A DNA stretch of 64,000 bases from Collinsella sp. zg1085 (GTDB taxonomy: Bacteria > Actinomycetota > Coriobacteriia > Coriobacteriales > Coriobacteriaceae). Below, piece by piece: positions 34,797-55,185 of this stretch. How positions within the stretch are numbered: position 1 is the stretch's first letter; each line of letters starts with the position of its first letter. A program made the position numbers and the translations under genes. The stretch is from the NCBI RefSeq assembly GCF_018889955.1, contig NZ_CP076545.1, positions 1,302,001-1,366,000 on the forward strand. Direction: 5' to 3'. The notes below the pieces were generated by a model that was not told where the DNA came from, did not search any database, and saw only the letters and a program-made list of their open reading frames with translations.

Positions 34797-34872
34797 GGGC
34801 GATTGGCGCAACGGTTAGCGCAGGTGCTTTACACGCACAAGGCTGGGGGTTCGAATCCCTCATCGCCCACCA
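34797..34872 (+). tRNA. tRNA-Val (anticodon UAC)
   Basis: 76 bases with CCA encoded. The acceptor GGGCGAT pairs with ATCGCCC; the anticodon arm is GTGC-TTTACAC-GCAC with anticodon TAC; the T arm holds GGTTCGAATCC. The gene has its own promoter and terminator. The bases from 34852 on are the first copy of a downstream tandem repeat. Confidence 0.95.
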
Positions 34873-34884
34873 TAGCTTTGCTTG

Positions 34885-34908
34885 AGGTTCCTACATGGAG
34901 CCTTTTTT
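34885..34908 (+). terminator. Intrinsic terminator of tRNA-Val
   Basis: AGGTTCC (34885-34891) pairs with GGAGCCT (34897-34903, one G-U pair) followed by TTTTTT. The same terminator recurs in each downstream repeat copy; in the last copy the partner is GGAACCT, restoring a full Watson-Crick stem. Confidence 0.9.
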
Positions 34909-34925
34909 GTTATGTGCTCTTATCA

Positions 34926-35047
34926 GGGGATTCGAACCCGCAAGGGCGCGAAGCTGAGAAACGTGCGTTTAGCACGTTGCCAGCGAAGCGCGCAAGCCAG
35001 CCAAAGGCTGGCGCAGCGAACGGGCGCGTATGCGCCCCCGAATCCCT
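34926..35047 (+). other. Multi-helix folded module of the repeat (copy 1)
   Basis: The module is closed by GGGGATTCG (34926-34934) pairing with CGAATCCCT (35039-35047). Inside are CCC-GCAA-GGG (GNRA loop, 34937-34946), and a long stem CGC-GAA-GCTG/CAGC-GAA-GCG with a symmetric GAA/GAA internal loop and an AACGTGC-GTTTA-GCACGTT tip (34947-34990). These are followed by GCCAGCC-AAA-GGCTGGC (34996-35012) and GGGCGC-GTAT-GCGCCC (35022-35037). The closing stem is an inverted copy of the tRNA T-arm sequence. Whether this works as RNA or as DNA hairpins is unknown. Confidence 0.75.
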
Positions 35048-35536
35048 CATCGCCCACCATAGCTTTGCTTGAGGTTCCTACATGGAGCCTTTTTTGTTAT
35101 GTGCTCTTATCAGGGGATTCGAACCCGCAAGGGCGCGAAGCTGAGAAACGTGCGTTTAGCACGTTGCCAGCGAAGCGCGCAAGCCAGCCAAAGGCTGGCG
35201 CAGCGAACGGGCGCGTATGCGCCCCCGAATCCCTCATCGCCCACCATAGCTTTGCTTGAGGTTCCTACATGGAGCCTTTTTTGTTATGTGCTCTTATCAG
35301 GGGATTCGAACCCGCAAGGGCGCGAAGCTGAGAAACGTGCGTTTAGCACGTTGCCAGCGAAGCGCGCAAGCCAGCCAAAGGCTGGCGCAGCGAACGGGCG
35401 CGCATGCGCCCCCGAATCCCTCATCGCCCACCATCGCTTTGCTTGAGGTTCCTACACGGAACCTTTTTTGTTATGTGCTCTTATCAGGGGATTTGAAGCC
35501 AGGAGGTTTGAAGCGACATCGCGCGTGGAATTTACC

Positions 35537-36842: not shown

Positions 36843-36938
36843 CTGACATACAGCTAAACTTTATGCTATAGTGACCTATTCTCAGCTGCGGCTGAGCGTA
36901 CTTTGATAGGTCGATGCGGCTTTGCCGCCTTATCGACC
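36843..36938 (+). promoter_or_regulatory. Predicted ssrA promoter and 5' leader hairpin
   Basis: CTGACA (36843-36848) and TATAGT (36867-36872) have an 18-base spacer. The leader between them and the tmRNA contains a stem GGTCGAT-GCGGC with GCCGC-ATCGACC (about 36908-36938), which may guide RNase P or other 5' processing of pre-tmRNA. Confidence 0.5.
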
Positions 36939-36947
36939 CTCGCATGA

Positions 36948-37316
36948 GGGGGCGACTGGTTTCGACACGATAGTTCTGAGAGAGGAAGCAAGTCGTGGTC
37001 TCCTCACCACGTTAAACAGGGGTACCGTCAAATTGAATTGACAATAATTCTTCTTATGAGCCTCAACTGGCTCTCGCTGCCTAAGTTATAGCGTAGCGCG
37101 TTAAACCGGGGATTTCCCCGACTCCGGGGCAACGTCATCTTAGGGGAATGCGCCTTTGCACGTAATCGGTATGGCAAAGGCTAAGCTTGAACCGGTTAGG
37201 GTGCCTTGAGCGTGTTACTGCGCGCGAGACATCTAAATCTAAACCAGTAACTGAGCTTGGAGATGCCAATCAGGGAGCTGTCGTGGACCGGAGTTCGATT
37301 CTCCGCGCCTCCACCA
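36948..37316 (+). ncRNA. ssrA: tmRNA
   Basis: 369 bases. The 5' GGGGGCG pairs with CGCCTCC at the 3' end (one G-U), the D-like region reads GACTGGTTTCGAC, the T arm is GGAGTTCGATTCTCC and CCA is encoded. The tag frame runs from about 37040 to the TAA at 37082-37084 and reads DNNSSYEPQLALAA; the resume codon GAC is my best guess. The ALAA end is the degron read by ClpXP-type proteases. tmRNA rescues stalled ribosomes and is a common integration site for mobile elements. Confidence 0.95.
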
Positions 37317-37374
37317 GAATAGGAGGCGTTGAACTCTTCTTCTGTAGGAATGAATTTGCGCTTGTATATAGATT

Positions 37375-37405
37375 CGAGGATTGCTAAGGCAACCCTCGTT
37401 TTTTT
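37375..37405 (+). terminator. Intrinsic terminator of ssrA
   Basis: CGAGGATTGC (37375-37384) and GCAACCCTCG (37389-37398) pair with one mismatch, followed by TTTTTTT. Confidence 0.85.
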
Positions 37406-37583
37406 GCAGGAAAAGCAAGATTTTAAAGTCGGGGTCGGAGATGATGTAGTACTGGAATATCTCGTCCTCCAAATCACCGCTTACTAGCTCTAGCGGACGG
37501 CTCGCAACTTCGTTGGCAAGCACCATTCCGCATACCCACTTTGATAGGTCTTCATAAGTCTTGATGTAATCGTTGAAATCCAT
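37406..37583 (-). pseudogene. 3'-truncated gene fragment next to ssrA
   Basis: An ATG at 37583 follows a strong AAAAGGAGG, and about 60 residues (MDFNDYIKTYEDLSKWVCGM, later LEDEIFQYYIISDPDFKILL) look like real protein. The frame then runs into the ssrA terminator and tmRNA without its own stop until 37239. The 3' end of the gene appears lost. A good ribosome site with no proper ending suggests a scar of integration or excision at the ssrA attachment site. Function unknown. Confidence 0.55.
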
Positions 37584-37647
37584 GGAATCCTCCTTTTCTA
37601 AGTGCAATCTCGACCGTCTTTAGACAGTCTTTGAGGCATATAAAAGG

Positions 37648-37706
37648 TTGATTTACCTGTTAAATTATTGTATAATAATACGTAATTACGTGAATACGTA
37701 TTATAG
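37648..37706 (+). promoter_or_regulatory. Promoter with ACGT-repeat operator of the restriction-modification locus
   Basis: TTGATT (37648-37653) and TATAAT (37671-37676) with a 17-base spacer form a near-consensus promoter. Overlapping and following the start site, AATACGTAATTACGTGAATACGTATT (written here as three TACGT-type boxes at about 37678-37703) is a dyad-rich stretch. Such short repeated boxes suit a ribbon-helix-helix protein, so autoregulation by the next gene is likely. Confidence 0.7.
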
Positions 37707-37717
37707 GAGAACTTGAT

Positions 37718-37894
37718 ATGAACAAGAAAGACAAAAAGAAGACGTCAGGAAATGTCAGGCGAACAAAGCTGACGCTGTCTGTGACGACAGAGGATAAGAA
37801 GATTTTGAAAATCATTGCAGCCAAGAGGGAGAAATCCATCTCAGCGATGCTGCATGAGTGGGTTGAGGAAAATGCAGAGGAGGCTGAGGAATAA
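37718..37894 (+). CDS. Ribbon-helix-helix protein heading the restriction-modification operon
   Basis: 58 residues. A basic N-terminus (MNKKDKKKTSGNVRRTK) leads into LTLSVTTEDKKILKIIAAKR and EKSISAMLHEWVEENAEE, a strand plus two helices of CopG/Arc type. AGGAGA precedes the ATG. Its TAA shares one base with the ATG of the nuclease-methyltransferase gene (TAATG), so the two are translationally coupled. I infer that it controls the operon through the ACGT boxes upstream, taking the role that C proteins have in other restriction-modification systems. Confidence 0.75.
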   Translation: MNKKDKKKTSGNVRRTKLTLSVTTEDKKILKIIAAKREKSISAMLHEWVEENAEEAEE

Positions 37895-39822
37895 TGGCAA
37901 AGAAGGAAGTTAAGACTGACCTGTGGGTCGCAAAGCAGCTCGATGAGTGTGGTATCAAGTTCGATGCTCAGGGCAGCAACGCGAAGGAAATAAACGACGC
38001 TCTTAAGACGGCGTCAAAGCGAGGAACTGGTAAGGCAGGATATCCTGAGTACGTCGCTGTCATCGGCGATTTCGTCCTTGTTATCGAAGATAAGGCCGAT
38101 ATGGGCAAGCAGATTAAGCTAACCGATTCGGGCATCATCGACATGGACGTGAAGGCTGTGACCGACTATGCCGTGAACGGTGCGTATTTCTATGCAAAGC
38201 ACATCGCGCAGAACACTCCGTTCAAGAAGGTGTTTGCTGTCGGTGTTTCCGGTGACGCGAAGCGTCACAAGATTACGCCTCTTTATGTGGACGACCGCGA
38301 GGGCTACAAGCAGCTTGAGGACATCGAGACATTCGTCGGGTTCTCCCCTGACAATATTCAGGAATACTACACACGCTATGTACTGGAGGAGATGACGGAC
38401 GTTGAAAAGACGACCGAGCAGATTCTGAAGGATGCAGCTGAGCTGCATGAGTATCTGCGCACATATGGAACGCTGAGAGACCAAGACAAGCCGTTAGTTG
38501 TTGCTGGTATCCTGCTTGCGCTGGACGAAATCAAGTCTAGGGGGTTCTCGATTGAGAGTCTTACGGGTGACCAGCTCGCTGGGAACCGTGACGGCGACAA
38601 GCTGATGAACGCCATCAAGAACCGTCTGACGCGCTCGAACGTGGGTCCAGAAGCGAAGAAAGATAAGCTCTTGTCTGAGTTCGCAATCTTGCAGACGAGC
38701 TTCAGACTGAACGAGATAAACGATACGCTGGGCAAGACGCCGCTCAAGTTCTACACGGAGTTCCTGAACGAGCACGTGTTCAAGAACATCAAGTACCAGA
38801 AGACCAGCGAGGACTTCATCGGCCGATTCTATGGCGAGTTTATGAGTTATTCAGGCGGTGACGGCCAGACGCTAGGCATTATTCTGACACCTTGCCACAT
38901 CACTGACCTGATGTGTAAGCTTGTGGATATCCAGGCGGATGACGTCGTTCTGGACCCGACTTGTGGAACTGCGGGATTTCTGATTTCCGCCATGCACCGC
39001 ATGCTGTCCATGGCTGATAGCGAGAGCAAGCGCAGAAACATCAAGAAGAAGCAGCTGCATGGTTTCGAGCTTCAGAGCAACATGTTTGCGGTGGCTGCTG
39101 CGAACATGATTCTTCGCGAGGACGGCAACAGCAACCTTGAGTGCACGGACTTCCTCAAGAAGAACCCTGCACAGGTGCAGCTGAAGCAGGCGACGGTCGG
39201 TCTAATGAATCCACCTTATTCGCAGGGGTCGAAAGCTGACCCTGAGCAGTACGAGCTATCCTTCATCGAGCACATGCTAGACTCGCTGACCATCGGAGCA
39301 CGCGCCGCAGTGATTGTCCCGCAGTCCTCCATGACGGGCAAGAGCAAGGCAGAACAGGCTTTCAAAGAATCCATCATGAAAAAGCACACGCTCGAAGGCG
39401 TCATCACCTGCAACACCGATACATTCTACGGCGTGGGCACGAATCCGGTTATCGCTGTGTTCACAGCGTATGAACCGCACAACGAGGACAAAGTCTGTAA
39501 GTTCATCGACTTTCGCGATGACGGGTACGAGGTTCGAGCTCACGTCGGCTTGGTCGAGGGCGATTCTGCGAAGGACAAGGAGCAACATTTGCTGGATGTC
39601 TGGAGCGGAAGCGTTGAGGCTCCATCGAAGTTCTGCGTCGAGTCCACAGTGAAGGCCGACGACGAGTGGCTGCACTCGTTCTATTTCTTTAACGACGAAA
39701 TTCCGACGGATGCGGATTTCGAGAAGTCTATCGGCGATTACCTGACGTTCGAGTTCTCTATGGTGATGCAAAACCGCGAGTACCTGTTCATGGGAGGTGA
39801 CAAGGATGCAGAGTCTAAATGA
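37894..39822 (+). CDS. Fused nuclease and N6-adenine methyltransferase, BcgI subunit A-like
   Basis: 642 residues. Residues 51-67 contain P-E, twelve residues, then E-D-K inside hydrophobic strands: a PD-(D/E)xK nuclease site. After a helical linker, the methyltransferase has LTPCHITDLM, motif I DPTCGTAGFL (354-363) and motif IV NPPY (439-442) of gamma-class N6-adenine enzymes. This order and length match BcgI subunit A (about 637 residues, as I recall with a P-E-x12-E-x-K site), a Type IIB enzyme that cuts on both sides of its site. A plain HsdM would lack the nuclease part, and no hsdR gene is present. Followed by an overlapping specificity gene. Confidence 0.85.
   Translation: MAKKEVKTDLWVAKQLDECGIKFDAQGSNAKEINDALKTASKRGTGKAGYPEYVAVIGDFVLVIEDKADMGKQIKLTDSGIIDMDVKAVTDYAVNGAYFYAKHIAQNTPFKKVFAVGVSGDAKRHKITPLYVDDREGYKQLEDIETFVGFSPDNIQEYYTRYVLEEMTDVEKTTEQILKDAAELHEYLRTYGTLRDQDKPLVVAGILLALDEIKSRGFSIESLTGDQLAGNRDGDKLMNAIKNRLTRSNVGPEAKKDKLLSEFAILQTSFRLNEINDTLGKTPLKFYTEFLNEHVFKNIKYQKTSEDFIGRFYGEFMSYSGGDGQTLGIILTPCHITDLMCKLVDIQADDVVLDPTCGTAGFLISAMHRMLSMADSESKRRNIKKKQLHGFELQSNMFAVAAANMILREDGNSNLECTDFLKKNPAQVQLKQATVGLMNPPYSQGSKADPEQYELSFIEHMLDSLTIGARAAVIVPQSSMTGKSKAEQAFKESIMKKHTLEGVITCNTDTFYGVGTNPVIAVFTAYEPHNEDKVCKFIDFRDDGYEVRAHVGLVEGDSAKDKEQHLLDVWSGSVEAPSKFCVESTVKADDEWLHSFYFFNDEIPTDADFEKSIGDYLTFEFSMVMQNREYLFMGGDKDAESK
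38044..38094 (+). other. PE-x12-EDK nuclease motif
   Basis: Codes for residues 51-67 of the nuclease-methyltransferase: PE, YVAVIGDFVLVI, EDK. The spacing places an acidic residue on one strand and E-x-K on the next, as in restriction nucleases of the PD-(D/E)xK class. Confidence 0.75.
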
Positions 39823-40321
39823 GAGGGAATGGAGGCAGCTGTCGGCTTTTGGCAACGGTGCTCCGCTGCATATCGAAACAACCAGTAGTAGTATTGACGG
39901 CATTCGCCTGATAGATGATGGTGAGAAGTCGGTTCCATATATTACTCGCTCCGATGCCAATAATGGCTTGGCGCGTTTCGTAAGCGCAAAGAACTATGCG
40001 TTTGGCAGTGATGATGGCGGTTGCATAACTGTTGGTTTGGATACGCAGACGGCGTTTTATCAGCCGCATAAGTTTGTCACGGGACAAAACGTGCAGGTTA
40101 TTACGGACAAAAACTTGAACAAAGACGTGGCTCAGTTTGTAGTGCCTATTCTGCGTCAGCAGATGACGGCTAAATTTAATTGGGGCGGTAACGGTGCAAC
40201 ACTTGGACGTATGAGGCGGCTTTCCATCATGCTTCCTGTTGACGATGACGGCAATCCTGACTACGACTACATGACGCAGTACGCCTCCGAAATGAGGGGG
40301 GGGGTTGCTCATGCGGTATAA
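39806..40321 (+). CDS. Specificity subunit, target-recognition unit 1 (frame ends after G9 tract)
   Basis: 171 residues as sequenced. The ATG at 39806 follows GGGAGG and lies inside the end of the methyltransferase gene. The unit opens with LNEREWRQLS, contains a recognition-domain-like middle (SVPYITRSDANNGLARFVSA, GCITVG, TAFYQPHKFVTGQNVQVI) and closes with MLPVDDDGNPDYDYMTQYASEM. At the G9 run (40296-40304) the frame continues only nine codons to a TAA. With eight Gs it would read on as RGGLLMRYKHYVAGRLSELE into unit 2, giving a 367-residue protein, close to BcgI subunit B (about 341). So the present form is either an OFF state or a short product. Confidence 0.8.
   Translation: MQSLNEREWRQLSAFGNGAPLHIETTSSSIDGIRLIDDGEKSVPYITRSDANNGLARFVSAKNYAFGSDDGGCITVGLDTQTAFYQPHKFVTGQNVQVITDKNLNKDVAQFVVPILRQQMTAKFNWGGNGATLGRMRRLSIMLPVDDDGNPDYDYMTQYASEMRGGVAHAV
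40296..40304 (+). repeat. G9 homopolymer in the specificity gene
   Basis: Nine consecutive Gs after ATGA, at the junction of recognition units 1 and 2. Frame arithmetic: G9 stops at 40321, G8 (or G11) fuses units 1 and 2, G10 stops soon in the third frame. The run also resembles a ribosome site seven bases before the ATG of unit 2. Confidence 0.9.
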
Positions 40322-40910
40322 ACATTATGTCGCTGGGCGACTCTCCGAGTTGGAGTACAAAGACATCCCAGCACTGGACGAGAAGGAATGGGCGGAGTTT
40401 CGCATCGGAGATTTGTTCGAAGTAAGTCGTCCAACGGCACGAAACAAGGACAATTACCAAGCGGGCGGAGTCCCATTCGTTGCGTCGGGAAGCGTGAATA
40501 ATGGGGTTATGAAGCTCTGCGAACCGCTAGATGACGAGCCGTTGGATAAAGGCAGGTGCATCACGGTTAGCCCTGTTGATGGCAGCACATTCTATCAACC
40601 AATGGATTTTCTTGGCCGTGGAGGTGCTGGTTCGTCAATATTGATGCTGCGTAGCGATAACTTGAATTTATATCGTGGCCAACTCATGGCACGGGCTATT
40701 CAGCAAACATGTTCGAAATATACCTATGGGCACATGGGCAACAAAGACAGCATTAAGCGTGAACGAATCATGCTCCCCGTCAATGATGCGAGTAAGCCCG
40801 ATTATGCGTATATGGAGCAGTATGCAAAGAACATGATGTTTCGCAAGTATCGTGCATATCTCAATTTCATTGAGCGAGAAATTGACGATATCGAGAGAGA
40901 GAGAGAGTAA
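40311..40910 (+). CDS. Specificity subunit, target-recognition unit 2
   Basis: 199 residues from the ATG at 40311, with the G tract as a possible ribosome site. After a helix (MRYKHYVAGRLSELEYKDIP) it repeats the architecture of unit 1: LDEKEWAEFRIGDLFEVSRP, VPFVASGSVNNGVMKL, ITVSPVDGSTFYQP and the closing IMLPVNDASKPDYAYMEQYAKNMM with a long helix. The end is a (GA)7 tract translating as IERERE then TAA. Removing one GA would join unit 3. The initial helix is what one expects of the unit 1-unit 2 linker, so this was once one gene with unit 1. Confidence 0.8.
   Translation: MRYKHYVAGRLSELEYKDIPALDEKEWAEFRIGDLFEVSRPTARNKDNYQAGGVPFVASGSVNNGVMKLCEPLDDEPLDKGRCITVSPVDGSTFYQPMDFLGRGGAGSSILMLRSDNLNLYRGQLMARAIQQTCSKYTYGHMGNKDSIKRERIMLPVNDASKPDYAYMEQYAKNMMFRKYRAYLNFIEREIDDIERERE
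40893..40907 (+). repeat. (GA)7 dinucleotide tract in the specificity gene
   Basis: GAGAGAGAGAGAGAG precedes the stop of unit 2. In the present length the frame ends at 40910. Loss of one GA (or gain of two) joins unit 2 to unit 3; gain of one GA gives a stop at 40912-40914. Confidence 0.9.
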
Positions 40911-40912
40911 GT

Positions 40913-41434
40913 GAGCCGCTAGCAAAGCTGAGCGAGAAGGAATGGGCTGAGTTTTCGTTAGACGATGTTTTCACTGTTGGCGCGGGCAAGAGATTGGAGA
41001 CGCGTAACAAAATTCCCGGAACACGTCCGTTTATCGGTGCAACTGATAACGGAAATGGCGTGACGGGCTTTGTCGGGAATGATAATGCGTCAAAAGATAG
41101 CAACGTGTTAGGTGTAAACTATAATGGAGCGCCGTGTATTGCTTTTTATCATCCGTACGAATGTGTTTTTACGGACGATGTAAAACGGCTGCATTTACGG
41201 CATTACAGGGATAACGAGTTTGTTTTGCTGTTCTTCGTATCAGAATTTGCGCAGCAACGTTCAAAATATAGCTATGGCTATAAGTTCAAAGAACAGAGAA
41301 TGCTGAGACAAAAATTGATGCTTCCTGTCGCTGATTCGGGCGAGCCTGATTACGAATATATGGAGCAGTACAGTAAGAACATGATGCTTTGCAAGTATCA
41401 GCAGTATCTGGCGTTTCTGGAGCAGAGCGTTTGA
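40913..41434 (+). pseudogene. Specificity subunit, target-recognition unit 3 (no start codon of its own)
   Basis: The frame from 40913 reads EPLAKLSEKEWAEFSLDDVF, RPFIGATDNGNGVTGFVG, CIAFYHPYECVFTDDVKRL, KYSYGYKFKEQRMLRQKLML, PVADSGEPDYEYMEQY and ends KYQQYLAFLEQSV. It is a third copy of the same recognition unit (about 174 residues). The first possible start inside is a TTG at 40994 with no ribosome site, so it is expressed only if the (GA)7 tract changes length. Sequence quality is intact, with no internal stop, which argues for selection rather than decay. Fused with units 1 and 2 it would give about 541 residues. Confidence 0.75.
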
Positions 41435-41443
41435 TAAGTGAAC

Positions 41444-41479
41444 AAGCCCGCCGTTTCTTTCCAGTCGGCGGGCTTATTT
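41444..41479 (+). terminator. Intrinsic terminator of the restriction-modification operon
   Basis: AAGCCCGCCG (41444-41453) pairs perfectly with CGGCGGGCTT (41466-41475), followed by ATTT. It is placed just after unit 3, so all three units belong to one transcript. Confidence 0.8.
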
Positions 41480-41628
41480 GGCACACAAGAGGAAGCACAA
41501 GCTAAACGACAATAACCTCGCCATTTTATATATCTGAACATAAAACTATACCGTTTATGTCGTAAAATAAAGCTACTATAAACGCGCCTATAGCTCACAT
41601 GTCTATAGTGCGTCACAAAGGAGTTGCC

Positions 41629-42264
41629 ATGAAGCAGACCGCCCAGACCCGTGTTGCACCCATTACCCAACTGCCGCGCCCAAAGCATGCGATTATTTTC
41701 CCCATGCTCTGCACTACGCTTGTTTCTGCAACTCTTTTTCTTTCTGGTTGCGGACATACGCAACCCGCAGGTTCAAATGGGTCTGCAAGCAGCGCACAGG
41801 AGGCTGGCTCTCAAACAGAGCAAGCTACCAAAACAGACGCAAACAACAATACTGCCTCAGCCACAGATGAGGCTGCAAATGCGGCCGCACAGCTGGCTGC
41901 CCGCATAAAAGAAAAAGAAGCAGCTGGTATGCTCGTGCTTAAAGGAACGCTCCATCAGTATTCTAGGGATGAGCTCCTAAAGGTTCAAAACGGTCCTCAA
42001 GAAGTCATCGATATATTAGAAGACAGCATGTATGTTGTGTTTGTACTCGATGAGCCTTCTGAACTTGAACTGCGCAGCGGAGACGGCACAGGCTTTTCAA
42101 CTCAGGAGGTTCACATGGTTCACTTGCGGAATTATCAGGGGGAATTACCTCAAACAGATAAGCAGCTCTATCTTGCAATTAACCCTAACAGCACGCACTT
42201 TCCCTCCGATGTTAGCCTCCCTCTAGGGGAGCCTCGAACCAACGAATATGAGCTGTTGTCCTAG
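41629..42264 (+). CDS. Lipoprotein of unknown function
   Basis: 211 residues from the ATG at 41629, with AAAGGAG upstream; an in-frame start at 41599 is less likely. The N-terminus is long and basic, then hydrophobic, ending in the lipobox LSGC (Cys about 41). A Gly/Ser/Gln/Ala-rich linker follows, then an alpha/beta domain of about 110 residues with no family I know. Probably a surface lipoprotein, and expressed on its own. Confidence 0.75.
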   Translation: MKQTAQTRVAPITQLPRPKHAIIFPMLCTTLVSATLFLSGCGHTQPAGSNGSASSAQEAGSQTEQATKTDANNNTASATDEAANAAAQLAARIKEKEAAGMLVLKGTLHQYSRDELLKVQNGPQEVIDILEDSMYVVFVLDEPSELELRSGDGTGFSTQEVHMVHLRNYQGELPQTDKQLYLAINPNSTHFPSDVSLPLGEPRTNEYELLS

Positions 42265-42370
42265 TATTCCAACACACTCACAGACTTGCTAAGCATTAAT
42301 CAAGCTACTTACACGGCGGTAATTAAACCGAAGAGCGTATTTCATTAACCCAGTTGAAAGGAGCTAATGC

Positions 42371-43255
42371 GTGACATCTTCTTCATCAAAGCATTCAACC
42401 GTCCGATTGATATACCCCGACTGGGTTTCAGGCGGACTTAGCACCTACTGGTGGGGCTCTAAAGTTTTGGAGCGGCTTATTCCTGAAAATAATAATCAGC
42501 AGGTTTTACATGTTGATATTCCCCAGCCACATGCCAGCTCTTTTCAACAAACACTACAGTTAGAGCAGGGTATTGCTGGCTTAAAGCATATTCTTTTGGC
42601 ACATAAACAAGCTGAGCAACTACTTGAAAAATCGCAGGCTGACCATGTAATTACCTTAGGTGGAAGCTGCTGGGTTTCACATGCCCCCTTCGACTATCTC
42701 CACAAACTCTATCCGCATGCTGGAATTATCTGGATTGATGCACATCCTGATGTTTCGCATGCACAACACGGGTATCCCATGGCACACGCTATGGTGTTGG
42801 CTGATTTAATGGGGCATGGTGATGAAGCATTTACCAGCCTTCGACAGAATGACCCCTTTGCTCCATCTGATATTCTCTATGTTGGACTGCAACAACTTCT
42901 TTCACCACAGCAAGACTTTTTAACCGAGCATCAGATATGTGCTGTTGCTCGGTCGGCTGATAAATTAGATGGAAATGCAATAGAAGTCTTTGCCCGCAAA
43001 CATAATCAGGTACTGGTACACCTCGATATTGACGTTTTGAGTCCGCATCTTTTTCACGACACCTACTTTGCCGCTCCTAATGCCGAGGGCGATGGCAGCG
43101 GTGCTGGGGTTTTACGTATTGAACAGGTATCTCGCATTCTTACAGCTATCACACAATCGAGCGAAATGATTGGCTTCACTATTGCTGAATACCTGCCCTT
43201 TTCTGCCGAGAAACTGGCGCAGCTCCTCTATGAGCTGCCTATTTTTACTACGTAG
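42371..43255 (+). CDS. Arginase-fold protein with altered metal ligands
   Basis: 294 residues; GTG start with AAAGGAG upstream. The ureohydrolase fold is shown by IIWIDAHPDVS (arginase DAHxD), LVHLDIDVLSP (DxD block) and a final glycine/helix region. Two metal-site features differ from classic arginase: the first ligand motif GGDH reads GGSCWVSH, and the last block lacks the usual DP. A subfamily with GG-x-C in place of GGDH exists, so it is probably not a simple decay product. The substrate could be a guanidino or formimino compound or something else; catalysis is not certain. Convergent with the zinc operon. Confidence 0.8.
   Translation: MTSSSSKHSTVRLIYPDWVSGGLSTYWWGSKVLERLIPENNNQQVLHVDIPQPHASSFQQTLQLEQGIAGLKHILLAHKQAEQLLEKSQADHVITLGGSCWVSHAPFDYLHKLYPHAGIIWIDAHPDVSHAQHGYPMAHAMVLADLMGHGDEAFTSLRQNDPFAPSDILYVGLQQLLSPQQDFLTEHQICAVARSADKLDGNAIEVFARKHNQVLVHLDIDVLSPHLFHDTYFAAPNAEGDGSGAGVLRIEQVSRILTAITQSSEMIGFTIAEYLPFSAEKLAQLLYELPIFTT

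Positions 43256-54030: not shown

Positions 54031-55185
<1,155 letters not shown>

Follow-up and report, generated by a model that had tools for sequence, protein, structure and literature searches.

One of the described systems closest to the locus reported here is HpyUM032XIII, a BcgI-like system of Helicobacter pylori UM032. Its specificity gene is split by a 12-G tract, whereas 11 G fuse S1 and S2, and experiments showed that the G12 to G11 fusion shifts recognition from CYAN7TRG to CYAN7TTC; by itself the first half acts on a palindrome, and the second half is inactive (PMC4450513). Hpy99XXII (HP1471-HP1472), another BcgI-like system of H. pylori, carries poly-G in its type IIB S gene, which is described as turned on and off by frameshift, and for HP1471 and JHP1364 the published and laboratory stocks were reported to have tracts of 14 and 13 G (PMC3936762). 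In the type I system Hpy99XV (JHP1422/JHP1423), one S protein contains three TRDs in succession, and pairs of them give two methylated target sites (PMC3936762). In the type I system NgoAV of Neisseria gonorrhoeae, a phase-variable G tract truncates hsdS and the specificity changes (PMC6789123). For Mycoplasma, the frame is set by AG[n] in hsdS and, in type III and CpG methylase genes, by poly(GA), as far as the citation of Atack 2020 in PMC9465063 goes.

The window, by which we mean the whole analysed stretch of 64,000 nucleotides from Collinsella sp. zg1085, shares with HpyUM032XIII a fused RM subunit and a specificity gene that is split between TRDs by a slippage tract, with one repeat change giving fusion. 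HpyUM032XIII has two TRDs and one poly-G tract, whereas the window has three TRDs and two tracts of unlike repeat class, and its third unit is without a start of its own. Hpy99XXII resembles the window in its type IIB S gene with poly-G but is a single S gene turned on and off, with neither a third TRD nor a dinucleotide tract. Hpy99XV has the three TRDs but is type I, its TRD2 and TRD3 are identical and no slippage switch has been described for it. NgoAV is likewise type I, with a G tract (and LEAT repeat number) instead of a dinucleotide tract and no third TRD described, and the Mycoplasma genes with AG or GA repeats belong, within what that citation covers, to other R-M types and form no BcgI-like array of three TRDs. 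That poly-G can fuse and split a BcgI-like specificity gene, with a change in specificity, is already known from HpyUM032XIII. What is new is the dinucleotide tract gating a third TRD without a start, the two unlike switches in one operon and the recurrence across phyla; no paper on frameshifting arrays of three TRDs, or on such phase variation in Collinsella, was found in the literature searched.

The genes, units and tracts of the operon all read on the forward strand. The A (RM) subunit of 642 aa (37894..39822) was identified by PADLOC, Pfam and its relatives, and consists of an N-terminal nuclease region followed by an N6-adenine methyltransferase (NPPY). It matched positions 2-636 of the 637-position PADLOC profile REase_MTase_IIG (E 1.7e-164) and Pfam N6_Mtase (2e-30), and its relatives reach 88% identity, the value obtained for the RM subunit of Gardnerella L056. 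By these profile matches, a predicted nuclease and a gamma-type N6-adenine methyltransferase are found in one chain, as expected of BcgI-like systems. The adjoining S region holds three TRDs, which lie in separate frames at G9/GA7 and give two-TRD chains in other phases alone. Judged from its sequence, this is a restriction-modification operon of the BcgI-like (type IIB/IIG) kind, whose three-TRD specificity region is split by two putative slippage tracts. A type I system with duplicated hsdS genes undergoing shuffling does not fit, as the predicted nuclease lies within the RM chain and Methylase_S matches in the genome are limited to units 1, 2 and 3. The direct repeats among the units are homologous TRD stretches of at most 141 nt, 65-89% identical to the reference copies.

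A small ORF of 58 aa (37718..37894), whose stop overlaps the start of A, is a probable operon member and may be ribbon-helix-helix-like; its match to Pfam DUF6364 was weak and under the cut-off, and ORFs 82-87% identical to it occupy the equivalent place in Gardnerella L056 and Atopobium deltae L054. A tmRNA gene (36948-37316) lies directly upstream of the operon. Genes for tmRNA are common integration sites; no repeat of the tmRNA 3′ end was found within 36900-42400, and a repeat search revealed no att-like repeat flanking the operon. Further upstream, at 34852-35497, a 187-bp unit occurs in 3.5 copies at 98% identity, starting in the 3′ end of a tRNA-Val gene (34797-34872), and downstream, at 54080-54148, there is a TGCTCG hexamer array of approximately 11.5 copies with a 77% match.

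All three specificity units matched Pfam Methylase_S and the PADLOC type II specificity model. Unit 1 (TRD1; 39797..40321; Methylase_S 1.9e-10) overlaps the stop of A and is 171-174 aa long, with a start at the GTG at 39797 or the ATG at 39806; this length and the end at 40321 apply to G9. The poly-G switch assumed in the sequence-only reading was located as a G9 tract (40296..40304) at the unit 1/unit 2 junction. In the phase table, for which the frames were recomputed for each repeat number, units 1 and 2 are joined at G8 or G11 into a chain of 367 or 368 aa. A G9 tract is not unusual in itself, since G9 or longer was found at 14 sites in the genome; it is the position that is unusual. Unit 2 (TRD2; 40311..40910; 199 aa; Methylase_S 1.1e-11) has an ATG of its own (40311) six bases past the G tract and ends within the GA tract, where at GA7 it is closed by the TAA at 40908..40910.

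The dinucleotide tract is present where it had been reported, at the TRD2/TRD3 junction: positions 40893-40907 read GAGAGAGAGAGAGAG, which is (GA)7 (40893..40906) plus one G, and TAAGTGAGC comes next. A genome-wide run search found this to be the single GA run of at least six repeats in the 1.72-Mb genome, and a first-order Markov estimate gave approximately 0.005 expected (GA)7 runs per whole genome. At GA6 or GA9, units 2 and 3 are joined without a stop into a chain of 373 or 375 aa, while the remaining two phases meet a stop 1 or 5 nt beyond the tract. A single phase out of three therefore fuses the two units, at the length of a canonical two-TRD subunit, and the earlier claim that loss of one GA reads through into unit 3 is arithmetically correct. 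The frame arrangement for switching by repeat number is thus present, as an SSR change alters the reading frame. The GA run gives alternating Glu and Arg codons in all frames, and probably extends a charged helix at the TRD junction with its character unchanged. For a dinucleotide tract to be highly mutable, 7 repeats are few, which counts against a GA switch.

The (GA)7 tract is very likely a translational-fusion switch at the TRD2/TRD3 junction of a BcgI-like three-TRD operon. At GA7, unit 2 would terminate in the tract and unit 3 would be silent. Slipped-strand mispairing during replication, with one GA lost or two gained, would bring unit 3 into frame and give a two-TRD specificity subunit of units 2 and 3, or a three-TRD subunit if the G tract were also in phase. 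A change at the GA tract would then alter the sequence that is methylated and cleaved in this strain rather than act as a plain on/off switch, because each half of the target is recognised by a TRD of its own.

Unit 3 (TRD3) has a frame which is open from 40886 to 41434, over 182 codons, and no stops or frameshifts were found in it. The statement that this unit combines an intact frame with no usable start codon holds. Within its first 70 codons, TTG 40994 and GTG 41060 are the only in-frame ATG, GTG or TTG codons and both fall in the TRD, so that no start precedes the TRD core, and GTG 40911 is in a different frame with a TAG immediately after it. The term promoterless, which had been applied to unit 3, was wrongly chosen, as the missing element is a start codon. 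Matches to Pfam Methylase_S (7.1e-13, on 40913-41431) and PADLOC Specificity_II (5.4e-51) were obtained, and the predicted fold had a mean pLDDT of 79.5. The best Foldseek matches of that fold were type I S subunits of Mycoplasma genitalium and Thermoanaerobacter (E 1e-5 and 8e-4), at a low TM of approximately 0.5. By these profile matches and the predicted fold, unit 3 is an intact TRD, and the frames support that it can be reached only if the frame changes at the GA tract.

The sequence-only reading was staked on unit 3 carrying no stops and not drifting neutrally in related strains. Besides the absence of stops in this genome, an excess of third-position change was found against the relatives. 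Since third positions were too divergent for pairwise dN/dS (p 0.49-0.66), codon-position branch lengths were used instead. By three-point distances, the unit 3 branch itself measured 0.42 at codon position 3 versus 0.10 at positions 1+2, a ratio of approximately 4, and the sister lineage in an intact gene 0.47 versus 0.06. Third positions exceeded the others in 89-100% of the usable bootstraps, with the lowest share where they were saturated. Such a codon structure indicates purifying selection and argues against long-term neutral drift, while a long branch of this kind is compatible with a recent silencing.

Units 1-3 are 33-35% identical among themselves, and each has relatives of 62-83% identity elsewhere. 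The nearest relative of unit 3, at 83% identity, is the second TRD in the intact B subunit of Gardnerella L056, and the first TRD of the same subunit is the closest match of unit 2 (68%). The proposal that the units were built as a tandem series is contradicted by this comparison, and tandem duplication was rejected as their origin because the mutual identity is just 33-35%. The start motif on which that proposal rested is indeed nearly the same in unit 2 (LDEKEWAEF, at 40374) and unit 3 (LSEKEWAEF, at 40928), with a diverged form in unit 1 (LNEREWRQL, at 39815), but it is the ordinary conserved entry of the TRD family and no proof of a tandem build. Because units 2 and 3 match TRD1 and TRD2 of the Gardnerella subunit, GA6 would restore an ordinary two-TRD subunit layout with unit 1 as an extra front module.

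The same resemblance lends itself to another explanation, in which an intact two-TRD subunit of units 2 and 3 was broken by a chance frameshift at the GA run and unit 3 is a recent pseudogene. The intact Gardnerella subunit is without a GA tract, the current state of the window is the unfused one, and the nearest relatives are too diverged to date a recent loss. Against such decay stand the integrity of unit 3, with its third-position excess, and the recurrence of junction tracts across phyla and of long GA tracts in loci with unrelated first TRDs, described below. We consider decay unlikely.

A census was made of 78 loci with at least two TRDs downstream of a related RM subunit, comprising 7,360 nt of junctions and 78,986 nt of TRD interior. 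G tracts of at least 7 were observed 17 times at junctions and once in TRD interiors (Fisher 1e-17), an approximately 180-fold enrichment, and dinucleotide tracts of at least 6 repeats 7 times at junctions and once in TRD interiors (2e-7), although in both comparisons the loci share descent and the p value overstates their independence. The sole interior dinucleotide tract, in L144, lies at a TRD end right before the junction. A/T runs of at least 8, examined in the same 78 loci as an internal control, displayed no junction enrichment. By record title, the tract-bearing loci include Actinomycetota, Bacillota, Bacteroidota, Campylobacterota, Chloroflexota and one alphaproteobacterial MAG, and at 25 of the 26 tract junctions the TRDs on either side are fused in precisely one phase out of three. 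A designed placement of stops past the tracts was rejected, as early stops occurred in 39 of 53 non-fused phases versus 73 of 118 artificial frameshifts in intact linkers (p = 0.09).

Arrays of at least three TRDs were found in ten loci, the window included; in one of the ten, L050, unit 1 is frameshifted. Of the two G9 tracts of L133, one is in the fused phase and the other is not, and in L144, where four TRDs follow one another, a GA tract occupies the third junction. Junction GA tracts were also found in L066 (GA13), L138 (GA10) and the Campylobacterales locus L090, on related and unrelated TRDs. L066 and L138 share the RM subfamily of the window, with RM subunits 78-79% identical to its own, and in both the tract sits after a similar ...IERERE helix end and is followed by TAA or TAG. 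The TRD preceding the tract is 58% identical to unit 2 in L138 and has no detectable relation to it in L066; the GA tract is therefore retained while TRDs change. Split S genes were also seen on Macrococcus plasmids, but without long tracts. No relative of a Xenorhabdus homologue was detected in the E. coli genomes examined, and in a wider phylum search at E 1e-100 the window's own genome was the sole match among 396.

Natural variation in tract length was observed at homologous junctions of relatives. L143 and L150 share 99.91% identity across an alignment of 2,292 nt, and the sole internal gap is the tract at their TRD2/TRD3 junction, approximately 1110 nt past the RM stop, which is (AT)16 in one and (AT)12 in the other, so that the phases differ; in L142 the tract is (AT)8, in the fused phase. 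L146 and L050 (99.82% identical) have G10 and G7, respectively, with the phase unchanged.

Repeats are error-prone and the fused form is of canonical length, and an assembly or sequencing error could in principle have turned a true GA6, and with it an ordinary fused unit 2-3 subunit, into the GA7 seen here. The genome is however a single contig with 99.93% completeness, tract and switch geometry would persist even at GA6, and relatives also occur in split states, which makes such an error improbable. Repeats are able to promote slippage of polymerase or ribosome, by which every GA7 gene would yield some fused product with its DNA unchanged and all products would coexist, but (GA)7 is not one of the heptamers recognised as slippery for ribosomes, and the differing DNA tract lengths of L143 and L150 fit DNA slippage, making this the least credible explanation, and a very improbable one.

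For the translational-fusion switch, likeness to HpyUM032XIII and the other cited R-M systems indicates that a change at the GA tract should change specificity. By the same analogy unit 1 should be the product at the present G9/GA7, either alone or together with unit 2, and it may act on a palindromic site as a homodimer. If unit 2 is made separately it may have no activity, because the second half of HpyUM032XIII is inactive alone. With G8 and GA6 combined, the recomputed frames give a 541-aa chain with three TRDs, and other phases terminate early. The two putative switches are plausibly independent. It is conceivable, if somewhat less than an even bet, that two tracts of unlike repeat class act as a combinatorial specificity switch, whose nine phase combinations would give unit 1 alone, units 1-2, units 2-3 or all three (541 aa) and several methylation patterns per clonal population, and that TRD arrays of 3-4 units tuned in this way are a general BcgI-like design across phyla.

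If these states are real, one compact operon in a commensal-type bacterium would give several interchangeable DNA-recognition specificities via replication slippage and without recombinases, and phage defence, possibly also gene regulation, would be diversified within a clone. The junction census suggests that the trait is widespread and under-described in BcgI-like systems. Annotation pipelines call the halves separate 'subunit S' genes or pseudogenes, by which they are easily overlooked.

Other G or C tracts were noted in the genome outside the window. A G9 tract at G000:C1:748774 (L172:1575) lies in a second R-M gene, an Eco57I-type N6 methylase (Pfam 3.6e-12), in which the first frame stops just beyond G9 and an overlapping frame of 335 aa carries on; this is likely a second phase-variable R-M gene of the same genome. 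G or C tracts of 9-12 were also found close to where ORFs begin that have GH123 glycosidase, Cna_B surface-protein and other domains (L170, L174, L176 and L178), suggesting genome-wide contingency loci.
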